A DNA stretch of 20,240 bases, taken from positions 1-20,240 of the IMG/VR virus record IMGVR_UViG_3300020190_000443; one strand, given 5' to 3'. A model generated the notes under the pieces. It was not told the origin of the DNA and searched no databases. It saw only the letters and a list, made by a program, of their open reading frames with translations. A program made the translations under genes and the position numbers. This document shows positions 1 through 18,270 of the stretch, piece after piece; position 1 is the first letter of the stretch, and each line of letters starts with the position of its first letter. This DNA is from a virus.

Positions 1-862
1 TTCTAGTGAGCAGGTCGCCCTTCGTCGTCAGCGCCGCGGCGCCGTTGCCGGGCTGCGGGCCGACCTCCACCCATTGCGAGTCGTAGTAGATGAACGTCTT
101 CGCCGTGTCCGACTCGAACCAGAGGTCGCCGGTGTTCGGGTCCGCGGGGGCGTTCTCCGAGACGTTGACCGTCGCGCCGCCCCCCGCGGCGGCGGCGTTG
201 ACCCACTCCGTGCCGTTGTACTGGAGGACCTGGCCGCTCACGGGGTTGGACACGTTGATGTCGGTCAGGTCGGACAACTCCTCCGCGCCGGTGTCCGCGT
301 TCAGTTCGACCCAGTTGTTGCTGTAGTAGATGAATAGGCTCAGGTTCGCCGAGTCGTACCAGAGGTCGCCGTTCTCGGGGTTCGCGGGAGCCGAGTCTCC
401 GACGGTTGTGCTGGAGCCAGTGCCGTTTATCCAACTCTCGCCGTTGTACTTGAGAATTTGACCTTGAATTAAATTTGCAAATTGAACATCAAACAAATCA
501 GAAAGTTCTTCAACTTGCAAGTCTGGGGTAAGTTCAACCCAGTTATTGCTGTAATAAATAAACAGAGTGAGGTTTGTCGAGTCGTACCAGAGGTCGCCCG
601 ATTCAGGATTGGCAGGCGCACTATCCCCTACTGTCGTGCTAGAACCTTTGCCGTTAATCCACTTATCGCCGTCGTACTTGAGGGTTTGACCAGCGATGAG
701 GTTGTTGAACTGTACGTCGAACAGGTCGGACAGTTCCTCGGCGCCGGTCTCGGCGTTTAGCTCGACCCAAGCCGAACCGTAGTAGATGAACATCTCGAGG
801 CTCGTGGAGTCAAACCAGAGGGCGCCGACTTCTGCGTCGGCCGGCGCCGTGTCGCTGACGGT
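1..862 (-). repeat. Tandem repeats of about 76 codons inside the fiber gene
   Basis: Four units can be aligned on their TV/NV + (S/G)(D/E)xAP motif, with starts near 862, 634, 406 and 166; the last is cut by the window edge. Spacing is 228, 228 and 240 nt, always a multiple of three. Each unit carries GxLW(F/Y)(D/E)S, FIYY, WVE(L/V) and, where complete, EELSDL and a Gly-Gln-x-Leu-x-Tyr segment. Units 2 and 3 are nearly identical in protein but differ greatly at synonymous positions. Such in-frame repeats are likely shaft or knob modules that can expand or contract by recombination. Confidence 0.85.
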
Positions 863-1219
863 GATTGTTGAGTTGCCGCTGATTTCGTTCCAAGCACCGT
901 TGGCGCGGTAATAAAAAGAGTTGTCGGCGGTGTCCACCGCGATGGCGCCATCGGGGAGCGGAGCGGTCGGCACGCCGGCGACGGCCATCGTGACGACGCC
1001 GGCGGTCGCCTTCAGGACGTCGTCCGTCGAGAGGACGTTTGCGCTGTCGCGGTAGAGGTTCGTGTCGTAGGCGCCCGAGCCGTCGCTCCACGAGAGGCGA
1101 CCGCCCGCCTCGAGCTTTACGCGGCCGTAGACCTCGCCGTTGAGGAAGACCGTGAGCGCGTCCGAGCCGGCGGACGCCAGATTCTTAATGGTTATCGGGG
1201 TGACGAATTTTTGTGCCAC
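1..1219 (-). CDS. Tail fiber protein with tandem repeats (C-terminus cut by window edge)
   Basis: Reading from a GTG at 1219, the frame is open without a stop to position 1, giving 406 codons, so the 3' end lies outside the window. The N-terminus MAQKFVTPITIKNL resembles that of the neighbouring fiber (MAQKFLTNLNLNQ). GAGG about 6 nt before the GTG is a good ribosome binding site. From about residue 115 the protein is made of repeats with the pattern TTVGDSAPANP..GDLWYDS, then LFIYYSNNWVEL, then EELSDLFDVQ and a KYNG..WING end. The last visible residues, LTTKGDLLTR, are a motif common in phage fibers. The role is inferred: a receptor-binding or spacer fiber attached to the baseplate. It is the last visible gene of the operon. 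Codon use varies sharply between repeats. The fiber call is fairly sure; the receptor is unknown. Confidence 0.8.
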   Translation of the reverse strand, partial: MAQKFVTPITIKNLASAGSDALTVFLNGEVYGRVKLEAGGRLSWSDGSGAYDTNLYRDSANVLSTDDVLKATAGVVTMAVAGVPTAPLPDGAIAVDTADNSFYYRANGAWNEISGNSTITVSDTAPADAEVGALWFDSTSLEMFIYYGSAWVELNAETGAEELSDLFDVQFNNLIAGQTLKYDGDKWINGKGSSTTVGDSAPANPESGDLWYDSTNLTLFIYYSNNWVELTPDLQVEELSDLFDVQFANLIQGQILKYNGESWINGTGSSTTVGDSAPANPENGDLWYDSANLSLFIYYSNNWVELNADTGAEELSDLTDINVSNPVSGQVLQYNGTEWVNAAAAGGGATVNVSENAPADPNTGDLWFESDTAKTFIYYDSQWVEVGPQPGNGAAALTTKGDLLTR

Positions 1220-1276
1220 TTGCGACCTCAATCGCTATTGCTTCTCGTTCGCTGGCCCCTCAAGGCCAACTATGTT

Positions 1277-2937: not shown

Positions 2938-3333
2938 TTATCTGGTGACCTCGGGTATTAGGTTGACGTCCCCGCGCACCACCTTGGAAACCACGTTGCC
3001 CGAACTCACTATCTCCAGGTCGTAGACGCCGCTCATCGTGAGCCCCGCCGTGTCGGCGGCGGAGATGCTTAGGAATATCTCGTTGTTCCTCGCGGGCGTG
3101 TCGCCCACGAAGGGGTTTATGGATATCCGGCCGTTCTCGGTCGTGAGGCTTATCATCGGCGTCACGCTGTCCACCGTGCGCCTTATGTGCATCCGTGCCG
3201 TGTGGCCGGCCAGGTTGTAGTTGACGAAGGTGTTCCCCGTCGGGTCGGCAACGAGGTCCGGTTGCTCGAGCGTGAGTTGGCGGAAAAAGGTCGAGCCCTG
3301 CTCCATCGTTATGTCGTAGATGCCTGCAATCAC
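2938..3333 (-). CDS. Conserved beta-rich phage protein, probable tail/fiber-associated
   Basis: 131 aa, GTG start at 3333 chosen because AGGAGA lies about 10 nt upstream and the resulting N-terminus MIAGIYDITMEQGSTFFRQL matches a widespread phage family. That family has the pattern 'AGxYDxxxEQGxTF', a middle 'NLxGxTARMxIR', a 'LTTENGxI' stretch, 'ISAADTAxL' and an ending 'PEVTR'; all are visible here in order (near residues 3, 40, 62, 91 and 127). The family has no assigned function that I know of. Members usually sit near fiber or lysis genes, as here between a holin and fiber genes, so a structural role in the distal tail is the likely inference. No signal peptide or membrane segment is seen. 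Confidence 0.7.
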   Translation of the reverse strand: MIAGIYDITMEQGSTFFRQLTLEQPDLVADPTGNTFVNYNLAGHTARMHIRRTVDSVTPMISLTTENGRISINPFVGDTPARNNEIFLSISAADTAGLTMSGVYDLEIVSSGNVVSKVVRGDVNLIPEVTR

Positions 3334-8067: not shown

Positions 8068-10977
8068 CTAACCTGTGGTCACATTGACGCCCGAGGAGAA
8101 CGTCAGGTACCTTTTAAGCTTTTCCGTGGTCGGCGGTGGGTTGTCGACGCAATTCTTCTTGCACGGCTTTATCCTCGGCATCTGGATGAGATCGACGGAT
8201 TCGATCGGGATCTCCTGCAGGGTCATCGAGCACGAGGCTCGGGCGATCTGGTTCGGGGATGCGCCGTCCTTCAGGGGTCCGTTGCCGGTCCTCTGGACGG
8301 CGGTGACCGAGAAATCAGAGATGACGAACTCTATCCCCCTGCCGCTCGTGAGCAGCGGCCACCTCACCTCGTTCTCCATGAATTTGTCCATGTTGAGGAA
8401 GGTGACGGGGTAGGGCGTCTGGGCCATCTCCCTGAGCGTGGTTATCTGGTTCTCGCACGAGAAGTTGAGCCCGAACCCCTGCTTGTTCACGTATTTCATG
8501 TCGACGATGTCAAAATTGAAACTTATCTTCAGGAGGTTGAACCCAGTCCAATCGATTATCGGGTAGTTCCCGCTCCTCTGTATCTCGGTCCAAGTCGTGC
8601 CGATGCCCGAGTAGTTGACCTCCTTCGGCACGAAGGGGAACTCAAAACGCCTCGGCTTGGGCTGGGTGACGGTGCCGTCCGGCGCCACGATTTGGTAGGT
8701 CTGGACCAGTTCCGGCATCCCGACGACCGAAGTTGCGGCTGTCCTCACCCCCTGCCTGTAGCCCGGAAGGCCCCTGACCACGGTTATTCGTATGGTCTTG
8801 GTCTCGCCCGAGTCTGCTGGGTTGTCGGTCGAGCCGGTCTCGGTTCCCCCCGGCGTCCTCGGGGCCAAAGGTTTGAGGTTCGTGACGACGTCTTTCAGGG
8901 CCAGGTAGAGGGGGTCGTTCTCCAGTTCGGCGAGGGCGATCTTCCGCGTCTTCCCCTGACCCATGAGCAGGGCCACCTTGGCCGAGAGTATCGACTCCAT
9001 GACCGATCTCTTCAGTTCCTTGATCGGGGCGCCTTCCTTCAGCCTGTTGTTGAGGAATGCCAGCAGCCTTTTGGGCGTGAGGCTCTCGACGGCTGACCCC
9101 TCGGTGAGTTTTGACGTCGCCGCGGAGATGGTCTTCTTCCAGTCCCTCGGGATAATCACCACCGAATCGGTGGTGCCCGTGCTGGGGGCGTAACCCGGTT
9201 GCGCGCCAGGGGTCTGGGGCTTACCGCTGTAAGAGAACTCGGGCTGCTGCTCGAACCCCTTGACGCCCTGGAGGCTGAAAGTTATCCTTTCAAAACCCGT
9301 CTTGATGTTGTCGTTGCTGCGCGACCCGGGTTTGCTCGTGGTCGCTCCGCTTGCGACGTAGCCGACGAATTCCGTGCCCGCGAGGCTGTTGACGAAGTTC
9401 ACCTGGGCGGCCTTGGCCTTGTTGGGTTGGTAATAGCTCTGCAACTCCGGTTTTGTGAACCCGAGTTGTGCATTCACGTCGCTCTTGAGGAACTTCCCGA
9501 AGTGGAAGCCGCTCGTGCAGTAGCCCGCTGAAATCTCACTGTCTGCCGGCGCCGTGAATGCGTCGTCCGCGCTCGCTTCATTTACCTGTTGGTCTTGGCA
9601 TGTACAGGTTACGCCCGACTTTCTTATTCTTTTCTGCCCCGGAATTACGTACCAGTAGTAGGCGCGGGCCGCAATCGAGGCGCCCGCGGAGTTGTCTGCC
9701 GGCCCGTACCCCGGGAGCCACTGGTTGTCCCTGGGCGTAGCTACGTTCTGGTTGAAATCCGAGCCGCTCACGACATGCGTTTTCAGGTAGGAGCTGGTAT
9801 CGGCGGTGTCTAACGGCAAGACCGACCAAACACTCGGCAGGTTCGGTGGGTGGCCGAATTTCAAGTTCGGGAGTACTGCATTCTTGCCCCATTCGATGGT
9901 TTTTTTGCCGGCCTTGTTGAGGGTGCCCCCTCCGTCGGTCGGGATGGCGAGCTCGATGTGCCTCTTTATTTTAAATGATGTGTCTTCATCAAGGGCTATC
10001 CTGTACGCCAAGTTGCCCCTCACTATGAACAAATCGGTGAAGGTGTATTTTGTATCGTCATCGGAGCCGGCGGGTTTACTGGTCACCGCGTTTCCCGCGC
10101 TTGAATCCGCCGGGATTTTCTGCGCGGTCAGCGGCAGATCCAGCTCGCGTAAAATTTTGCTCCCGGAATAGACGATTTTTTCCTTAAACGTTTCCGGGAC
10201 GTTGATGCTTATCGGCTTCACGTTTTTCTTGATTATCGCCGTGTTGAACGGGTCGTCGTCTAGGTAGTAGGAGAGCGGGGTGTCCGCCGGATAGAGGGGC
10301 TGATCCGTTAGGAATAAGCCCTTGCCTCCCCCGTAGGCGCTCAGGGCATTGGTTTTGAAAGTCAAACCGCCGCTCTTGGATAAACCGAAGCTGTTCGATG
10401 GGGTCGCTTCCAGATCGACGTTCTCCCTGCTCGTTTTTCCGGTGAAGTAGTAATCGATGAGAATGCCGCGCGAGGTCGTTTTGCCCATCACCGTCTGCAT
10501 CCACCGAAGCCACAGGAGGACGAATTGTCCGTTGGCGTTGCCAAGGTGGATGTTGGGGATGGAGCCGAGAGCCTCCTTGCCCGAATTGCCTGCTTGGAGC
10601 CGGTATTCAGTGGTGGGGAGCGTCGGGTTGGATAACGCAAGAGGTCTTATCTTTCTGTATCCGTCCTGCAGGGACGGTCCGTATACTTCACGGTATACGC
10701 GCATCCAGATCTGCGCCGAGTATCCAAGTTGGGCATCCTCGTCAGATCCGAAGTAGCCACTTAGTCTCACGCTCTTCACCAAGTCGGTCGCCTGCAGGTG
10801 GAGGGCAGGGGCGATCGACAGGCCCTGCTCGTTGAAGCCGTAGCGCATGGTCTTTTCTCCCACGGTGCCAACAAGTCCCTCAAGTTCCGAAGTGTAGAGG
10901 TCGGCGGTCGACCTCTGCCCCCTCACCTCCGAGGAGCTGATCGGTTTCAACAAGTACTTAATCGGTGCGTCGGGCAT
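8068..10977 (-). CDS. Large baseplate/tail protein, XkdP-like C-terminus and SWIM-like Cys/His cluster
   Basis: 969 aa; the ATG at 10977 overlaps the tape measure stop by one base (TGATG). Residues 1-450 are beta-rich without a family I recognise; a stretch 'ILIDYYFTGKTSRENVDLEA' suggests a jelly-roll-like domain. Near 445-495, 'YYWYVIPGQK' is followed by C458-x-C460-QD, C487 and H492, close to the CxC...CxH order of SWIM zinc-binding motifs but with C-x4-H. Residues about 770-945 ('RRFEFPFVPKEVNYSGIGTT', 'WTGFNLLKISFNFDI', 'YPVTFLNM') resemble the XkdP-type tail domain that normally links tape measure and hub; no LysM domain follows. A C-terminal CKKNC pair is present. Its place between tape measure and hub supports a baseplate-hub accessory role. 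It is far longer than XkdP (about 230 aa), so extra functions are likely. Confidence 0.6.
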   Translation of the reverse strand: MPDAPIKYLLKPISSSEVRGQRSTADLYTSELEGLVGTVGEKTMRYGFNEQGLSIAPALHLQATDLVKSVRLSGYFGSDEDAQLGYSAQIWMRVYREVYGPSLQDGYRKIRPLALSNPTLPTTEYRLQAGNSGKEALGSIPNIHLGNANGQFVLLWLRWMQTVMGKTTSRGILIDYYFTGKTSRENVDLEATPSNSFGLSKSGGLTFKTNALSAYGGGKGLFLTDQPLYPADTPLSYYLDDDPFNTAIIKKNVKPISINVPETFKEKIVYSGSKILRELDLPLTAQKIPADSSAGNAVTSKPAGSDDDTKYTFTDLFIVRGNLAYRIALDEDTSFKIKRHIELAIPTDGGGTLNKAGKKTIEWGKNAVLPNLKFGHPPNLPSVWSVLPLDTADTSSYLKTHVVSGSDFNQNVATPRDNQWLPGYGPADNSAGASIAARAYYWYVIPGQKRIRKSGVTCTCQDQQVNEASADDAFTAPADSEISAGYCTSGFHFGKFLKSDVNAQLGFTKPELQSYYQPNKAKAAQVNFVNSLAGTEFVGYVASGATTSKPGSRSNDNIKTGFERITFSLQGVKGFEQQPEFSYSGKPQTPGAQPGYAPSTGTTDSVVIIPRDWKKTISAATSKLTEGSAVESLTPKRLLAFLNNRLKEGAPIKELKRSVMESILSAKVALLMGQGKTRKIALAELENDPLYLALKDVVTNLKPLAPRTPGGTETGSTDNPADSGETKTIRITVVRGLPGYRQGVRTAATSVVGMPELVQTYQIVAPDGTVTQPKPRRFEFPFVPKEVNYSGIGTTWTEIQRSGNYPIIDWTGFNLLKISFNFDIVDMKYVNKQGFGLNFSCENQITTLREMAQTPYPVTFLNMDKFMENEVRWPLLTSGRGIEFVISDFSVTAVQRTGNGPLKDGASPNQIARASCSMTLQEIPIESVDLIQMPRIKPCKKNCVDNPPPTTEKLKRYLTFSSGVNVTTG

Positions 10978-13900
10978 CAGCGCCTCTGCCTTTCATTGCT
11001 GAGGGCGAGCTTGAGCTTGACCACGGCCGCGTCGGCTATCGCCTGCGCGTCCGTGTTGCCGTTCACCGTCATGTTGATGACCATTGGGCTCGCCTCGCCC
11101 CCCTTGCCGCCGAGTGGCCTCGTGATCGTCGTTTTGGGCGCGGACATGTCGCCGAACGGCAGCGGCCCCGGGACGACGTGGAGGTGCCTGCCCCCGTTGG
11201 CGCCGTGGAACTCGGCGAACCCTCCGTTCGCGTGGACGAGCCTCTGGTAGGCGCCGAGGTTCTGGCCGACGAGGTCGTACGCCCTGCCCGTGACGTGGTC
11301 GGAGTTGATCGACCCGAGACCGAATTCCCTGTACGACGAGGTGACGTTCCTCGTGCCGGTCAGCATCCCGTCCAACGCCGCGTGCCTGCCCATCGTCTGC
11401 GCGAGGCGCGAGGACGTCGTGTCGCCGATGCCCTTGCCCCTCGGGGTGCTGGTGTCGTTGTTCTGGTCGACGAACTTGATGAACTTGTCGGTCATCCAAT
11501 CCGGCCTTGCGTCGCGCTCATCGAAGAAATTGGAGAACATGTCGATGATCCCCTGGTACGTGTCCCTGAGCTCCTCGGGCATCTTGTCGAGGGATATCTG
11601 CAACTCGTCCCCCTCCCCGACAGCCTTCAGGCCGAGTGCGGCGCCGTCCAGGCCGTAGGCCTTCATCAGCTGCGAGAAATCATTCATCGAGAATTTGCTC
11701 ATGTCCGCGTTTTCGAACAGCCGGCCGCTCTCCAAATCCGAGAGGAGCTGCAGTTGTTGTGCCATGCCGATCTCTCCGAAAGCTTCCGAGAACTTCTTGG
11801 AGTCCAGCATGAACTTTTGGCCCTGGACATTTTCAATCAGCCTCGCGTTGATCTCGCCGCCCATCGTGGCGGATCCCGTGCCGATTCCTTGAAGCAGCAT
11901 CGACTGGAATGCCTCGCCCACCGGGCCCGTGTTGAATCTGTCCCTCTCTCCGTAGAATGGGCTCGTCACCGTTTTCCCGTTGATTATCTCCTTACGGCTG
12001 AACTCGGTGCCGTCCGGGCCGAAGAGGGCCAGCGCCTGGATCATCCCTTGGAGCCCGCCGCCGGCGAAGTTGAACAGGTTCGGCATGAAATCTTTGATGA
12101 AGGTCGCAAAATCCGAGTCGGACATTTCCCCGCTGGCTTCGTCCAAGGCGTCCCTGAACGCTCTGGACTGCTCGTCGACTATGTTGGGAGCATCCAGGTT
12201 CTCGAAAGCCTTGGCGAATTGGTCCAGCCCAGCGAGGGCGATGTCCATCTGTAGCCCCCGGAGCTGCTCTCTGGTCTTGGCGACGCCCACCCCGAGTTCC
12301 TCGAGGACCGTGTGGAAGTCCTTGGTGGCGTCGTAGAGGTCGACCCCCATCGTGGAGGCCATGCGCTCCACCTCCTGTTCCGTCTTCCCCGTAAACCGCG
12401 TGAGGATCTCGAGCTTCTTCTGGTAGATGTCCGTCAGGTGGTTCTGCGCCTTCTGCCGCCTGTCCAGCTTGTCGGCCACTTTCAGGCTCTCCTCCGGGCG
12501 CTTTCGCATGTCCTTTATCTGCTCGTCGGTCAGGTTGAACTGCGACTGGTTGGCGGCCATGAACTGGACCAACTGCGCTCCCGACGCGCCTTTGCGCACC
12601 ATGTCCAGGATTTGGTTTTCCTTGGCGTTCATCGATCCGCCCGCGCGCGTGCGCGCCACGATGGCCGATTTGCCGACGCCCCCGCTGGCGATCATGTCTC
12701 TCTGGATGAGTTGCATCTCGGACGCGAAGATGTTGTCGAACGCCGCCTGGAACGCCGCCCGCACCTTCTTCTTCTCTTCCTTGACCTTGTTGAGCCCGCC
12801 CATCAACCCGCCGACGGCCGTGCCTATGATCGCGCCCGCCGCGGTTCCGAACCCGGGGGCGATCATCGTTCCGATGGCGGCGCCAGCTGCGGCCCCGCTT
12901 ACCGCCCCGCCTCCGACGGTCTTCGACGTCAGGGCCGCGCCGCCGAGTCCGATGCCGAGGCCGGCGAGCGGGTTGTACATACCGATCATCGCGCCGGCGG
13001 ACAGGAACCCCTGTGCCTCCTCCGAGACCATTCCGGAGTTCGCGAGGGCGCCGAGCCCGAGGCCGACGCCGATCCCGCCGGTCGCCGAGCCCTGCAGACC
13101 TTTCCTGTTCTCGTTGCCGAGGACCATCCCGCCCAGCCTGCTCTGCCTGGCGTGCCCGGCGGCGAGCCGCACTCCTTGAACCCTGGATGCGAAGCCGCCC
13201 GGTCTGTACTGCTTCGGGCCGTTCAGCGCCGAGGTGGGGGAGAGGAAGTTGTTGTACAGCCGGCCACTGAAAAACCTGCCCCTGAAGCTGTTCGGGTCGT
13301 ATGTCGCTCCCGGTCCGTACTGCCTCACGCTGGTCATCCCCGGCGGGAACTGCAGGAAGGTCCTCTGGTTGCCGAACATGGTGGTGCGCGACTGTATCGT
13401 TGCGCCAGCGTTCGGCCCGCTCGTGATCAGGTGGCCGCCCCCGATGCCCTGCCCGGCGCGGACGTGGCCGCCGAACTGCTTGCGAAGTTCGCCCCTCTCC
13501 TGGGGCGTGAGCTTTGGGCGCGGCGAAGACCCGCCGCCTCCCCTCGACGAAAACCCGCCCCCGCTCGTGCCGTACCCTGGCGCGCCCCGGAACGGCAGCA
13601 CGCCGGTGGGCCCGCCGCTTGTTCGTATGCTGTTGGAGTCCTTCACGATGCCCATGTTCCCGCCCCCGCCCCGGACGCCGTACTGCATCATGGGTTTCCC
13701 GTTGACGTATATGACGCGGGCGTTCACGTTCATGTTGGCGACCTCGCGCATGCCGGAGGTGCTCATCGTCTGGGTGAAGTAGCCCTTCGTGTTCTTCATG
13801 CCCCTGGCCAGGCCCATCAGGCCGATCAGGGAGCTAACGCCGCCCATCCCTCCGATTCCCCCCGTGAGCTTGGTGAAGCCGCCTAGGAAGCTTGTGAACA

Positions 13901-15425
13901 GCTCGATGAGGCTGGTGAACCCCTTTATCACCTTGTTGATGAAAGGCAGGGACTGGAAGAACAGTTTCCTCGCCTCCGAGAAGTACTCCATGACCTTGAC
14001 GAGCATTTCCCCGAAGTTGGTCCCGAACTGCCTGAGCTGCGGCTCGTTGGCGAGGAGCTGGTTGTTGAAGTCGTACATGTTCTTCTTTATCTGCTCCCAG
14101 ACGGGGAGCCAAGCGCTCTTGAGGATGCCCTCGAACACCCTGGCGCCCTCGATGAATGGCCTGAGGACGTCGAGGACTCTGTTCCACCCGTCCGTGAAGT
14201 TGTCCCACCAGTTGCCGATCCTCTCGAATATCCCCATGGAGCCCGGCAGGAAGTCGCGCATGGTCCTGACCACGAAGTCCGAGATCTTTCCGACCACGAC
14301 GGAGATCTTGTCTATGAAGCCCGACTTGCCGAACTCGGTCACCTGTCCGTTCATTCTCTGGAGGGCGCGGGTGATGATTGCGAAGGACTCCTTCGCCTCC
14401 TTCTTCATCGGGGCGAGGAAGCTCTGGCCGAAGTCCGCGAACTGGCCGCGCAGCATGTTGAACTCCCCCTTGAGCGTGGCGATCAGCGTGCCCGACACGG
14501 CGCCGAACTGCCCGTCCACTCCTCCGAGCTTGGCGAGCTCGCCGGACCTGATCGCCGCGGTCAGGCCCGCCTTCGTCTTGTCGCTGCCTTTCCCTTTCTC
14601 GAACTCCTCGAGAGCCTTTTTCAGTTGCGGGCTGAACTTCTTGCCGGCCGACACGACGTCGCTGTAGGACTTCTTGGTGTCCTGCAGCGTCGCTATGAGT
14701 GCTCCGGCCTGCTTCGTCCCCTCCTTGAGATCCATGCCGGCGCTGGCGAAGTCCATGAGCCCCTTCAGCGTGTTTTTCGAGCCGGTGGTAAACCTCGTGC
14801 CGCCCTTAACGACCTCCCCGTAAGCCGCGACGAGGTTCTCGATTCCCACCGATGCGAGGTCGGCGTCCATGGTGAGGGCGCGCATCTGCACGCGCGTCTG
14901 GTTGAGGGCGGATCCGAACTCCGCCGCTTGCCCTCGGCCGGCGAACGCGAACATCGCGGCTTGCTGCTCCCTGATGGCGGCCGCCGCCGTGCCCGCCGCT
15001 ATCGCCACCCCGGCCATCCCCGCTGCGACCATCTTCATCGCGCCATGGTACGCCTTCATGATGAGCCGTCCCGTCCCGAACAGGAGGTGGATTCCCATCA
15101 TCGCCACGCCCATCGCCGCCATCTCGAGGACGAGCCCCTTGATCGTCAGGCCGAGGAATTTCGAGAGGCCTTGGCCCGTCATTCTGATCATCTTGTCGAA
15201 GGAGTCGAAGCGTTTCTTGTACTTTCGCGAGACCCCGTCGAAATTCTTGAACTCTTCCTTTATGCGGTTTCTGTCGCCGCGCGACCGCAGGTCCCTGTCT
15301 CTGTCGCGCCTCTTCTCGTCGCGCCTGTTGGCCCCAGCGAGTCTCTCCAGTTTGCGCCGGGTGCGGTCGATCTCCTTGTCGTCGGATTTGACCTCTATTT
15401 TTATTACGACGCGCTCGTCAGGCAT
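10977..15425 (-). CDS. Tape measure protein with C-terminal M15-type peptidase
   Basis: 1482 aa, ATG at 15425 with GGAGA 5 nt upstream. The N-terminus (about 20-75) is strongly basic and helical. Residues about 95-170 are hydrophobic membrane-like segments. Residues about 560-775 are Gly/Pro/aromatic-rich and unlike a coiled rod. Residues about 778-878 form a long Gly-Ala zipper (SGAAAGAAIGTMIAPGFG and similar). Charged helices follow to about 1340. Near 1377-1416 the motif SDH-x6-D ... HLH (H1377, D1384, H1416) matches M15/VanY-like zinc peptidases that cut peptidoglycan peptides. Tape measures set tail length and enter the host first, so the enzyme likely opens the wall during infection. 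Position after the chaperone gene is standard. The tape measure call is firm; the peptidase call rests on the motif only. Confidence 0.92.
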   Translation of the reverse strand: MPDERVVIKIEVKSDDKEIDRTRRKLERLAGANRRDEKRRDRDRDLRSRGDRNRIKEEFKNFDGVSRKYKKRFDSFDKMIRMTGQGLSKFLGLTIKGLVLEMAAMGVAMMGIHLLFGTGRLIMKAYHGAMKMVAAGMAGVAIAAGTAAAAIREQQAAMFAFAGRGQAAEFGSALNQTRVQMRALTMDADLASVGIENLVAAYGEVVKGGTRFTTGSKNTLKGLMDFASAGMDLKEGTKQAGALIATLQDTKKSYSDVVSAGKKFSPQLKKALEEFEKGKGSDKTKAGLTAAIRSGELAKLGGVDGQFGAVSGTLIATLKGEFNMLRGQFADFGQSFLAPMKKEAKESFAIITRALQRMNGQVTEFGKSGFIDKISVVVGKISDFVVRTMRDFLPGSMGIFERIGNWWDNFTDGWNRVLDVLRPFIEGARVFEGILKSAWLPVWEQIKKNMYDFNNQLLANEPQLRQFGTNFGEMLVKVMEYFSEARKLFFQSLPFINKVIKGFTSLIELFTSFLGGFTKLTGGIGGMGGVSSLIGLMGLARGMKNTKGYFTQTMSTSGMREVANMNVNARVIYVNGKPMMQYGVRGGGGNMGIVKDSNSIRTSGGPTGVLPFRGAPGYGTSGGGFSSRGGGGSSPRPKLTPQERGELRKQFGGHVRAGQGIGGGHLITSGPNAGATIQSRTTMFGNQRTFLQFPPGMTSVRQYGPGATYDPNSFRGRFFSGRLYNNFLSPTSALNGPKQYRPGGFASRVQGVRLAAGHARQSRLGGMVLGNENRKGLQGSATGGIGVGLGLGALANSGMVSEEAQGFLSAGAMIGMYNPLAGLGIGLGGAALTSKTVGGGAVSGAAAGAAIGTMIAPGFGTAAGAIIGTAVGGLMGGLNKVKEEKKKVRAAFQAAFDNIFASEMQLIQRDMIASGGVGKSAIVARTRAGGSMNAKENQILDMVRKGASGAQLVQFMAANQSQFNLTDEQIKDMRKRPEESLKVADKLDRRQKAQNHLTDIYQKKLEILTRFTGKTEQEVERMASTMGVDLYDATKDFHTVLEELGVGVAKTREQLRGLQMDIALAGLDQFAKAFENLDAPNIVDEQSRAFRDALDEASGEMSDSDFATFIKDFMPNLFNFAGGGLQGMIQALALFGPDGTEFSRKEIINGKTVTSPFYGERDRFNTGPVGEAFQSMLLQGIGTGSATMGGEINARLIENVQGQKFMLDSKKFSEAFGEIGMAQQLQLLSDLESGRLFENADMSKFSMNDFSQLMKAYGLDGAALGLKAVGEGDELQISLDKMPEELRDTYQGIIDMFSNFFDERDARPDWMTDKFIKFVDQNNDTSTPRGKGIGDTTSSRLAQTMGRHAALDGMLTGTRNVTSSYREFGLGSINSDHVTGRAYDLVGQNLGAYQRLVHANGGFAEFHGANGGRHLHVVPGPLPFGDMSAPKTTITRPLGGKGGEASPMVINMTVNGNTDAQAIADAAVVKLKLALSNERQRR

Positions 15426-15457: not shown

Positions 15458-16182
15458 TTAACCCTTGGCTTGCCGTTCAGCGGCTGCTCGATCCTTCTCT
15501 ATTACTTTAGCACAAGCCATTCTTATGACCCACTCGGCGTCCGTGCAATCCAGCATCCGGATGGGGTCGGTCCCCCACAACTCGCCCAGGCGTGCGACCG
15601 ATTTGATTAGAGGTTCTTCGACTAGGTCGTCGAAGACCTCTTCGTAGGGTCCTCATTTGCCTCGATCGTGTCCCCGTAGCCGGCGGCGTCGAGAATGGCG
15701 AGGGCGGCCGCCTCCACGTGCGGGTCGATGGCAAAGAATGCGCGCACCGCGTCCGGGATCGGGCGCGTGGTGTTGGTCATCTTCATTATCGCGTCGTGGC
15801 CGAAGGTGATCGGGTAACCCTCGTCGTCCCTGACCTCCTCGTCGCCGAGGATCACGCCGGTGCAGGTGTTTCCGATCACGAGCGACGCAAACTTGGTCGC
15901 GTCCATGCCGTTCTTGGTCTCGTCGCCTGCCTCCTTGCGCCACTTGCGCACCTGGCTCTGGGAGACGTTCGGGCTGATGCGTAGCGACACTCTCGGGCGC
16001 TCCGGGACCTCGATGAACACGTCGCTGCGGCTCACCTTCGTCTCGATCGTGGACGTGAGCTTCTGCAAGAGCGTCTCCGCATTTTCCGCCTTGGAGATCG
16101 CGGACTGGGTCTTTTCCTCGCGCGCCTTCTTGGCTGGCTCGGTTCCGGTTGTTGGTTCGTCCGAATATAGTGATTCGGCCAT
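15458..16182 (-). CDS. Tail assembly chaperone, frameshifted long form (gpGT-like)
   Basis: A second product of the chaperone gene. If the ribosome slips -1 at the Pro codon (15648-15646), it leaves the first frame after residue 179 and continues for 62 codons to a TAA at 15460-15458, giving 241 aa. The extension reads YEEVFDDLVEEPLIKSVARL, then GELWGTDPIRMLDCTDAEWV and a charged helix ending RQAKG. It is acidic, free of the Arg/Pro excess of shadow frames, and has the look of known gpT-type extensions (a Trp-Gly-x-x-Pro turn and a final charged helix). It has no good start codon of its own. An in-frame TGA at 15655-15653 in the -1 frame forces the shift to happen at or after that point. In lambda the long form recruits the tail tube to the tape measure and is absent from the virion. 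Confidence 0.75.
15612..15649 (-). promoter_or_regulatory. Programmed -1 ribosomal frameshift signal with stem-loop
   Basis: The message reads GAC CCT ACG in the first frame; tRNA-Pro on CCT can re-pair one base back on CCC. Seven bases after CCT a stem-loop begins: GGT-CTTCGAC, loop GACCTA, GTCGAAG-A-ACC, that is 7 perfect pairs plus 3 more across one bulged A (15638-15612). The stop codon TAG of the short form spans the loop and stem. A 5-9 nt spacer before a stem is the known design of -1 frameshift stimulators. The slippery site is not a classical X-XXY-YYZ heptamer, so the exact slip mechanism is inferred. Confidence 0.65.
15622..16182 (-). CDS. Tail assembly chaperone, short form (gpG-like)
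   Basis: 186 aa, ATG at 16182 with AAAGGA 8 nt upstream. The N-terminal 45 residues are charged and helical (KAENAETLLQKLTSTIETKV). The body has 'ISPNVSQSQVRKWRKEAGDE', 'KFASLVIGNTCTGVIL' and 'IMKMTNTTRPIPDAVRAFFA', then a DPH helix and an end ANEDPTKRSSTT. Gene position between tube and tape measure, size, and the frameshifted continuation identify it as the G-type chaperone, which keeps the tape measure soluble during tail assembly and is not part of the virion in lambda-like systems. The DPT(K/x)xS end just before the shift site resembles other phage chaperones. It is separated from the tube gene by a 94-nt gap. Confidence 0.8.
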   Translation of the reverse strand: MAESLYSDEPTTGTEPAKKAREEKTQSAISKAENAETLLQKLTSTIETKVSRSDVFIEVPERPRVSLRISPNVSQSQVRKWRKEAGDETKNGMDATKFASLVIGNTCTGVILGDEEVRDDEGYPITFGHDAIMKMTNTTRPIPDAVRAFFAIDPHVEAAALAILDAAGYGDTIEANEDPTKRSSTT

Positions 16183-16210: not shown

Positions 16211-16280
16211 GGCATTAAACTAGCAACCTTTAGCCGTCGCCAGCGCAACTATGCCGAGCCCCCGAAGGGCGTTAAACTAG
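16211..16280. repeat. 13-nt direct repeat flanking the gap after the tube gene
   Basis: GGCATTAAACTAG (16211-16223) and GGCGTTAAACTAG (16268-16280) match at 12 of 13 bases, 57 nt apart in the 94-nt gap between the tube and chaperone genes. One copy contains the tube stop codon (CTA on the plus strand at 16277-16279). It may be the trace of a small duplication of the gene end, or a regulatory repeat. Nothing else supporting a function is seen. Confidence 0.5.
16258..16270 (-). other. Small stem-loop after the tail tube gene
   Basis: Minus strand GCCC-TTCGG-GGGC begins 6 nt after the tube stop codon; an alternative register gives CCC-TTCG-GGG with a stable UUCG loop. No T-run follows. It separates the highly needed sheath and tube from the chaperone and tape measure, needed in low amounts, so it could protect the upstream message or weaken read-through. 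The stem is short. Confidence 0.3.
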
Positions 16281-16786
16281 GTTGTCTGTGCCGGCTTTTT
16301 CGCCTCTACGTTGACATCGCTGATAGAGAAGGTCAGGGCGAAAGTCGACGGGGCGCCCGACGAAGAGTCTCCGTCCGGCTCCGTCAAACCGACGAGAAGG
16401 GCGTTGGAGTAGATCCTGTCGTTGGCCGGGTTCGTAAGGCCGCAGTTGAAAACCCTCACGTTGATGTCGTAGAAGCCGATGCCGACGAACTGCCTCATCT
16501 TCCTGATGGCCGTCATCAACCCAATGTCGCTGGCGTCGTCGTCGTAGTGGGCGGTCAGGGTGATGTCCCCGATCTCCGACGGCGCGCAGAGGACCGTCGG
16601 TCGCTTCGCGCCCCCCTCGTAGATCTTCTCCACGGAGGCCGTGATCTCGCCGCCGGAGATCTGTGCGAAGAGGAAATCGGTTTTGGCCGGCGTTTGCAGG
16701 GCGGGTGGCGCTTCATTATTCCCAATTGTCGTGGTCGATCTGGGGGTGATGTGGGCCAAGACCTGGCGTTGCGATACTTTTGCCAT
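16277..16786 (-). CDS. Tail tube protein
   Basis: 169 aa, ATG at 16786 with GGAGG 6 nt upstream, 11 nt after the sheath stop. It is a compact beta-rich protein with the usual tube order: an N-terminal loop (about 1-45, Thr/Pro-rich), 'GEITASVEKIYEGGAKRPT', 'EIGDITLTAHYDDD', a helix 'IGLMTAIRKMRQFVGI', the strand 'DINVRVFNCGLT', and a final 'FALTFSISDVNVEA'. Size and its place directly after the sheath gene are as in other contractile phages. Hexameric rings of this protein stack into the DNA-conducting tube inside the sheath. Strong ribosome binding site agrees with a high-copy product. Assignment is mainly by pattern and synteny. Confidence 0.82.
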   Translation of the reverse strand: MAKVSQRQVLAHITPRSTTTIGNNEAPPALQTPAKTDFLFAQISGGEITASVEKIYEGGAKRPTVLCAPSEIGDITLTAHYDDDASDIGLMTAIRKMRQFVGIGFYDINVRVFNCGLTNPANDRIYSNALLVGLTEPDGDSSSGAPSTFALTFSISDVNVEAKKPAQTT

Positions 16787-16797
16787 TTATTCCTCCG

Positions 16798-18270
16798 TTA
16801 ATTGGTTACCGATGCGGTAAGGCTTGACTTGATGATGTCGACTTCGATCCTGTCCCCAACGCTGGAAACCCGAAGGCCGACCCTGGCTGTTATTTTACCA
16901 TTTGTCAGATCAAGAGTTGAGTTTAGTTTAGCATCACATCTCACGGTGTAGCCGTAGTCGATCCTCGTGCCGTTGACCGCGAACGCCTCAAACAGCGCGC
17001 CCGAGATCCGGTAGCCCTCGAGGACGGCGATGAGCCTTCCCTCGATCGAGGAGAAGATGCCGCCGCGCCCGTCAATCGTCGAGAAGACCAGCGGCTCGAT
17101 TGCCCTGTAGGAGTCCGTCACGACGGAGTTAACGATGTCCTGCGCGGTTATGTATCGGAAGTTCGTCGTGTCCTGCGAGAGGGATCGGGCACCGTAAATT
17201 CGCACGGAGTTGCTGATCACCCTGATCGCGTTGACGGCCTCGTCGTCAAGGCTGTTGCCGTTCGTGCGGTCGATTTCTACGACCAGACCGTTCACGAAGT
17301 TTGCCTGGGAATTCGCTCCGGCGAAGGGGACGTGGGAGTTTGAACCATTGACGATCTTCGACCTTTTGCCGGCGACATACCCGTCTGGCGGGATCTGCCT
17401 GTTCACCCCGACCACCGCGGTGGGCGTGAAAACCCACGGGTAGTAGAGGGCGGCGTGCTCAAGGTTCGGGTTGTTGGCGATGACGTCCTGCGCCCAGGTT
17501 TTCGCGCCAGCGATCGTGGTGTTGTTGTCGGTGTGGAGGATCGCGATCCTGTTGTACTCGTTCGCGTGGCTGATGAGCCCGGTCATCACGGTTGCCGACT
17601 GGTTCTCGGGGCACGACACTGCGCCGGTCCCGAGCGCGTCATTGAACTTTGCCAGGCCGGTCACCAGGAGCGCCGCCGTCACCGAGGCCGCATCATCGGT
17701 GCCTGCGCTCAGCGCTGTGAGGGCGGCGACCTTCGGGAGGCTGGTGTCGGACCCGAGCGAGGCGACGATGTACTTGCTCGCCTCGGCGTGGAGGTTGAGC
17801 TTGCCGACGATCTGCTCGCGCGTCGTGCAGTTGCCCGTTGTCGCGACCTGGACGCTGTTCTTGAAAATCTTGACGACGCGAGTTCCCGCTACGGTTCCGT
17901 CGGTTACCTGCGCGCCGATAGCCGAGCTCCACGCCCCTGGGCCGTTGGCCGTAAGGATAATCGTGGTGTTGCCGGGGGTCTCTTCGTCGACAAGGTTGAG
18001 GAGGCCCGAAGTCGCAGCTGGGCCGACGACCCGTGAGATGTAGCACTGCGTGCCGCCCTCTTCAAAAAATGTCTCAACGGTCGGGTGGAGGAAGGAGCCA
18101 GTGACGAAACCGCCGAAAATGTCTTCGAAATTGCCGAGGCTGAATACGAGTACGGCCTCGTTGACCGGCCCGCGCTCTGCCTTGCCCACGAAAAAGGCCT
18201 GCGAAGATTCGTTGAGCAGGGTGGCGGATGGCCCGGTGCGGACCGAAGTGGATATGGATACGCCTGGCAT
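16798..18270 (-). CDS. Tail sheath protein
   Basis: 490 aa, ATG at 18270 with GAGG 5 nt upstream. The start MPGVSISTSVRTGPSA, 'FFVGKAERGPVNEAV' (26-40), 'NFEDIFGG' and 'FFEEGGTQCYISRVVG' (68-83) are classic N-terminal sheath features. The middle (about 130-300) is a variable insertion domain. The C-terminal part has 'KRSKIVNGSNS', 'NAIRVISNSVRIYGARSLS', 'FRYITAQDIVNSVV', then 'IEGRLIAVLEGYRISGALFE' and a last strand 'KITARVGLRVSS', typical of the conserved sheath core. The protein forms the contractile outer tube that drives injection. It is followed at once by the tube gene. Length is within the normal range of 350-660 aa. No truncation or frameshift is seen. Confidence 0.95.
   Translation of the reverse strand: MPGVSISTSVRTGPSATLLNESSQAFFVGKAERGPVNEAVLVFSLGNFEDIFGGFVTGSFLHPTVETFFEEGGTQCYISRVVGPAATSGLLNLVDEETPGNTTIILTANGPGAWSSAIGAQVTDGTVAGTRVVKIFKNSVQVATTGNCTTREQIVGKLNLHAEASKYIVASLGSDTSLPKVAALTALSAGTDDAASVTAALLVTGLAKFNDALGTGAVSCPENQSATVMTGLISHANEYNRIAILHTDNNTTIAGAKTWAQDVIANNPNLEHAALYYPWVFTPTAVVGVNRQIPPDGYVAGKRSKIVNGSNSHVPFAGANSQANFVNGLVVEIDRTNGNSLDDEAVNAIRVISNSVRIYGARSLSQDTTNFRYITAQDIVNSVVTDSYRAIEPLVFSTIDGRGGIFSSIEGRLIAVLEGYRISGALFEAFAVNGTRIDYGYTVRCDAKLNSTLDLTNGKITARVGLRVSSVGDRIEVDIIKSSLTASVTN

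Follow-up and report, generated by a model that had tools for sequence, protein, structure and literature searches.

A non-classical −1 slip site, G_GAC_CCU, predicted in the tail assembly chaperone gene of an uncultured phage and its relatives

The tail assembly chaperone gene of an uncultured, contractile-tailed phage very probably contains a programmed −1 ribosomal frameshift at G_GAC_CCU, which is likely to proceed by a tandem tRNA slip. The phage is represented by a record of 20,240 bases, analysed as a whole and called the window here, with its tail genes on the minus strand. Comparison with related sequences reveals a −1 frame that is open and under selection, a confined place for the shift, a heptamer that co-varies with its codons, and a stem. 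The predicted event is of the known lambda G/GT type of tail-chaperone frameshifts, with a slip site that is new in this setting.

According to the proposed mechanism, most ribosomes would complete the gpG-like chaperone of 186 aa. A minority would reach the downstream stem-loop with GAC and CCU decoded in the P and A sites by tRNA-Asp and tRNA-Pro, respectively, and both tRNAs would go back by one base, from G_GAC_CCU to GGA_CCC (in relatives with AAC, from A_AAC_CCU to AAA_CCC). UAC would be read next, and the product would be a gpGT-like fusion of 241 aa carrying a 62-residue extension. If lambda is a guide, both products may attach to the tape measure protein, with the less abundant fusion recruiting the tail tube subunit. 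What we infer in this scheme is that shifting takes place and how efficient it is, that the tRNAs move in tandem, and what the two proteins do. The slip site of lambda is G_GGA_AAG; the site in the window is unlike it, and no sequence similarity to the lambda gpG/gpGT system is claimed.

Gene order and place of the shift

The genes follow each other on the minus strand in the order tail sheath, tail tube, chaperone and tape measure. The features of the region are listed below with their basis.

16798..18270, minus strand: tail sheath protein (PHROG 23)
16277..16786, minus strand: tail tube protein, preceding the chaperone (PHROG 5102)
15622..16182, minus strand: zero-frame tail assembly chaperone, 186 aa, gpG-like (PHROG 5088, E 2.4e-12)
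15653..15655, minus strand: TGA in the −1 frame, upstream limit for the shift (sequence)
15646..15652, minus strand: putative slip heptamer G_GAC_CCT (form X_XAC_CCY, with X matching, in 127/128 relatives)
15629..15641, minus strand: 5' arm of the stem-loop (folding; register kept in relatives)
15622..15624, minus strand: TAG ending the zero frame, placed between the loop of the stem and its 3' arm (sequence)
15609..15622, minus strand: 3' arm of the stem-loop, interrupted by a single bulged A (15615) (folding; register kept in relatives)
15458..15646, minus strand: −1 extension, 62 codons and TAA, gpT-like part of the predicted fusion (conserved, under purifying selection)
10977..15425, minus strand: tape measure protein, 1482 aa, the next gene, with its ATG at 15425 (length and position)

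The original prediction described a 186-aa chaperone frame followed by a −1 frame of 62 codons that ends before the tape measure gene, and placed both in the G/GT scheme. The frames were confirmed, with the extension at 15646-15458 and the tape measure ATG at 15425. The scheme is supported by the chaperone-family protein in the zero frame (PHROG 5088), by its position between the tail tube and tape measure genes, and by a conserved C-terminal extension that lies in another frame and overlaps the chaperone end. The AlphaFold model of the chaperone (pLDDT 82) found its best match among predicted viral structures in the tail assembly chaperone of Brevibacterium phage Cantare (E 2e-9), and the protein is homologous to annotated chaperones of Gordonia phages. 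A Foldseek search against the PDB gave nothing below E 3, Pfam with chaperone and extension gave nothing over the cut-off, PHROGs with the extension returned weak matches to unnamed families only, and a DNA-level search of phage records for relatives gave no match.

The −1 frame of the window is open from 15652 to 15461 (minus strand), ends with TAA at 15460-15458 and encodes GPYEEVFDDLVEEPLIKSVARLGELWGTDPIRMLDCTDAEWVIRMACAKVIEKDRAAAERQAKG. The slip codons are GAC at 15651-15649 and CCT at 15648-15646, so that the predicted fusion comprises 179 + 62 = 241 aa. Between the −1 TGA (15655-15653) and the zero-frame TAG (15624-15622) there is room of about 30 bases for the shift. That the TGA confines the shift had been stated before, and the limits are even closer across the family: a −1 stop stands immediately before CCC in 1/128 relatives and one codon earlier in 14/128, and the zero-frame stop follows only 1-3 codons further on in 9/128. 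Taken together, these stops narrow the shift window to the CCY codon. Sequences of the form X_XAC_CCY are rare in the window's own genes, with 2 among 6,566 codon pairs, the slip site being one of both. The other in-frame case in the main genes is AAACCCC at 3117-3111 (minus strand), in the ORF 2938-3333.

The tape measure ORF (10977-15425) had no family match. Near its C terminus it contains the motif SINSDHVTGRAYDLVG ... GGRHLHVVPG, which we take to resemble the zinc-binding pattern of M15-type D,D-peptidases; Pfam on the whole tape measure protein reported no M15-type peptidase family match. A fibre-like ORF at 2-1231 (minus strand) internally repeats a unit of about 60-70 residues several times (TTVGDSAPANPESGDLWYDS...LFIYYSNNWVEL).

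Slip heptamer and tRNA movement

The relatives were obtained by chaperone scans of public viral contigs, which left 128 distinct sequences after de-duplication, including one locus (L107) in an Actinomycetota metagenome-assembled genome. In 127 of them the slip site has the form X_XAC_CCY, where X copies the first base of the following Asp or Asn codon: G_GAC occurs in 90/91 members with GAC and A_AAC in 37/37 members with AAC. The single exception, L074, has T_GAC_CCC with an intact extension (around 1888). Elsewhere in these genes, GAC and AAC codons served as control and had the matching base in front of them in 19% and 31%, respectively. Immediately upstream of the slip codons the genes encode Glu, Val, Ala, Met, Leu, Ser or Thr, and on the tree this residue was replaced 18 times or more while the base before GAC or AAC stayed the same. 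Two independent switches between GAC and AAC were found, and the base was carried along both times; these switches alone are short of significance, and the weight lies on the base having stayed constant while the preceding residue changed.

The slip codons are restricted as well. GAT makes up 44% of the Asp codons elsewhere and CCA plus CCG 63% of the Pro codons, and none of these is used at the slip site; AAT, likewise common elsewhere, is also absent there. The codon after CCY is much less constrained. The constant base and the restricted GAC/AAC and CCY codons suggest that two codons and the preceding base are under selection, as would be expected with both tRNAs moving. Since GAC or AAC and the base in front of it change together, the P-site tRNA-Asp or tRNA-Asn very probably slips too, and tandem slippage of tRNA-Asp/Asn and tRNA-Pro is likely on this comparison.

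The original prediction let tRNA-Pro move to CCC at GAC-CCT; the place and the −1 direction hold, and the co-varying base speaks against a single tRNA. A slip of tRNA-Pro alone from CCU to CCC, on the tetramer C_CCU and with an irrelevant upstream codon, nevertheless is the strongest competitor, although an unlikely one. In E. coli, a pseudoknot lets the tetramers C_CC.U and C_CC.C shift (PMC4066793), and the CCC core is the sole feature that every member shares, the exceptions and the Gordonia phages among them. However, this explanation accounts neither for a base that copies the first base of the codon in 127/128 relatives nor for the absence of GAT and AAT, and tetramers are much weaker shifters than heptamers in E. 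coli (PMC4066793). Against tandem slippage, in turn, stands the poor re-pairing of tRNA-Asp on GGA, with one wobble-like and one mismatched position. Two sequences also break the rule and keep the extension, namely L074 and the Arthrobacter phage Abba with C_GAC_CCT. In L074 a single-tRNA slip may suffice because tRNA-Pro can re-pair fully on C_CCC.

As claimed originally, GGACCCT is non-classical. In the window (GGA_CCC_T) YYY = CCC fits the strict form X_XXY_YYZ with identical bases in XXX and YYY, and XXX = GGA fails; the A_AAC_CCY relatives (37/128) have the strict form. A relaxed form, in which the first base is kept in the P site and the A site re-pairs on YYY, describes the window and 127/128 relatives. 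Heptamers X_XXY_YYZ with G_GA as X_XX are known from RNA viruses, i.e. insect-specific flaviviruses, umbraviruses, dianthoviruses and mesoniviruses, where a GAY codon in the P site slips to GGA in tandem slippage (PMC5009743). These cases are RNA viruses of eukaryotes, whereas the window belongs to a bacterial system, and the umbravirus heptamer G_GAU_UUU has YYY = UUU instead of CCC (PMC5009743). Among 64 strict heptamers with the strongest stimulator in E. coli, only A_AA.C_CC.A, G_GG.C_CC.A and C_CC.G_GG.C were below threshold (PMC4066793); since A_AA.C_CC.U is absent from these three, it is shift-competent in E. coli.

Judged by its motif names, PRFect would cover AAACCCT ('threethree') and GGACCCC ('twoonefour'), and GGACCCT would be two-one-three and hence, by the names alone, unlisted (PMC10885494). 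Frameshift finders based on strict heptamers, and probably PRFect's listed motifs too, would therefore miss G_GAC_CCT. No relevant paper on frameshifting at GGACCCT/GGACCCU or AAACCCT/AAACCCU was found in the open-licence literature. The earlier suggestion that the site may be a new variant holds for this setting.

The −1 extension and the downstream stem-loop

The −1 extension is kept in 128/128 relatives. The original prediction had named relatives without both the open −1 frame and the stem as evidence against it, and this combination was absent from the collection. In the 126 relatives with a complete end, the extension spans 59-68 codons after CCC. Beyond the overlap with the chaperone, only the −1 frame is under purifying selection, with a pN/pS of 0.18 in contrast to 1.25 for the zero frame and 3.02 for the +1 frame.

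The extension might instead be a separate small gene whose translation begins at a codon of its own and is coupled to the stop of the chaperone. Annotators of Arthrobacter phages and of Cantare list a small hypothetical gene at this place, and the extension of the window has in-frame TTG and ATG codons (codons 22, 30 and 42). However, the first −1 start codon of the relatives lies anywhere from codon 3 to 59 and is absent in 20 members, invariant residues are encoded upstream of it, a Shine-Dalgarno-like motif precedes it in only 8 members, and annotators of the homologous genes in Gordonia phages give joined products. With the start variable or absent and the residues before it invariant, a separate gene is highly improbable. 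Metagenome contigs often carry single-base indels, but a sequencing or assembly error, or a mutation of a one-frame gene, is already refuted by conservation in the sequences, as the identical frame change at the identical codon occurs in 128 distinct sequences, none of them fused in one frame, and also in the genomes of phage isolates from Gordonia, Brevibacterium and Arthrobacter.

Two further routes into another frame were rejected. Transcriptional slippage needs longer runs than the CCC or CCCC that form the only run here, and after a +1 shift the frame closes after a median of 8 codons.

Returning to the tandem −1 slip, a stem of 13 pairs with one bulged A begins 4 nt past the heptamer. 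AGAGGT and CTTCGAC (15641-15629) pair with GTCGAAG (15622-15616) and, beyond the bulged A (15615), ACCTCT (15614-15609). The stem predicted originally, with the zero-frame stop within it, is thus present and is longer than the 7 + 3 pairs given. The folding energy in the window is −20.5 kcal/mol in comparison to a mean of −7.4 in shuffled sequences (z −5.88, with 0/200 shuffles reaching the energy of the window). When local folding is scored along 127 relatives, the lowest values (mean z about −1.9) come from windows that open 0-6 nt past the slip codon; elsewhere the score runs from about +0.2 to −0.8, except for the directly overlapping window. In a fixed register of 12 pairs, 76% of the cells are standard pairs and 49 are double-change cells, compared with 30-47% and 5-28 in slid controls. 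In redraws of synonymous codons, 46% of the members fold better than 95% of the draws, a conservative figure because the draw pool contained the stem codons.

The window thus has a putative stimulatory structure downstream, and its relatives differ in this respect: several members lack a convincing stem, and the distant Arthrobacter relatives retain the heptamer with no evident stem of the same shape. RNAalifold on 47 sequences gave no consensus structure, probably because registers and bulges differ between members, and Rfam gave no match. Given the folding minimum and the fixed-register pairs on the one hand and the stemless members and Arthrobacter phages on the other, the stem is probably a real but lineage-specific stimulator that belongs to the window's clade. 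An upstream Shine-Dalgarno-like stimulator was not conserved in the relatives. Some members have a second small hairpin about 30-55 nt past the slip codon (L033: GCCGACGATAAAGTCGGC), and the sliding-window folding score shows a weak second dip at this position.

Cultured phages

Gordonia phages such as GMA6, Schomber and DalanDe (Bendigovirus, Chidieberevirus) encode a homologous chaperone and extension in the same gene order, and their frameshift, also of −1 direction, is annotated as a joined product. At the equivalent Asp-Pro position they have the classical site C_CCT_TTG (CCCTTTG), and Cantare has the classical C_CCT_TTA (CCCTTTA) at the equivalent place. A scan seeded with the Gordonia chaperones returned only GMA6 itself and one match (L109) that is seemingly unrelated.

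Arthrobacter phages (Klausavirus, Marthavirus, Vibakivirus and others) have a homologous chaperone and extension, matched by hhalign with 99.4% and 97.6%, respectively. G_GAC_CCT and the extension are found in 16/17 sampled Arthrobacter phages; the exception is Abba (L354, around 930), with an intact extension. In contrast to the window, these phages have no stem of the window's shape, and the frameshift is unannotated: 0 of the sampled records give a joined product. Instead, 11 records list a small hypothetical gene at the extension, which in 10/11 shares its stop with the −1 extension. A survey of 46 Arthrobacter phages leaves frameshifting unmentioned (PMC5513430). The predicted G_GAC_CCT frameshift has thus apparently gone unnoticed in the Arthrobacter phages in culture, whose public records lack the fusion or list a fragment as a separate hypothetical gene.

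Comparison of the slip sites of the cultured phages and the window's clade shows that the CCCT core is constant and that the side of the partner codon differs. The partner lies downstream of CCCT in the Gordonia and Brevibacterium phages (C_CCT_TTG in Gordonia) and upstream in the Arthrobacter phages and the window's clade (G_GAC_CCT). We consider it probable that G_GAC_CCU and A_AAC_CCU form a distinct and widely used class of bacterial −1 slip sites, in which the P-site tRNA-Asp or tRNA-Asn re-pairs by the first codon position(s) and tRNA-Pro on CCC, with the slip partner on the opposite side of CCCU in comparison to Gordonia CCCUUUG. Such a class would so far have escaped notice in many Arthrobacter phages in culture, as well as in hundreds of uncultured phages whose hosts are probably aquatic actinobacteria. 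The natural variants, i.e. G_GAC and A_AAC, CCT and CCC, the two exceptions and the CCCTTTG relatives, make the rules of P-site re-pairing during −1 frameshifting in bacteria directly testable in cultured phages with laboratory hosts.

The small hypothetical genes between chaperone and tape measure in Arthrobacter phages and Cantare that share the stop of the −1 extension look like fragments of the frameshift product. Such ORFs were recorded at 1513-1650 (L345), 1106-1240 (L346), 998-1138 (L347), 998-1141 (L348), 1010-1186 (L352) and 1052-1180 (L353), and further ones at 989-1129 (L354), 1061-1150 (L356), 980-1192 (L357), 1091-1219 (L358) and 1385-1492 (L342).
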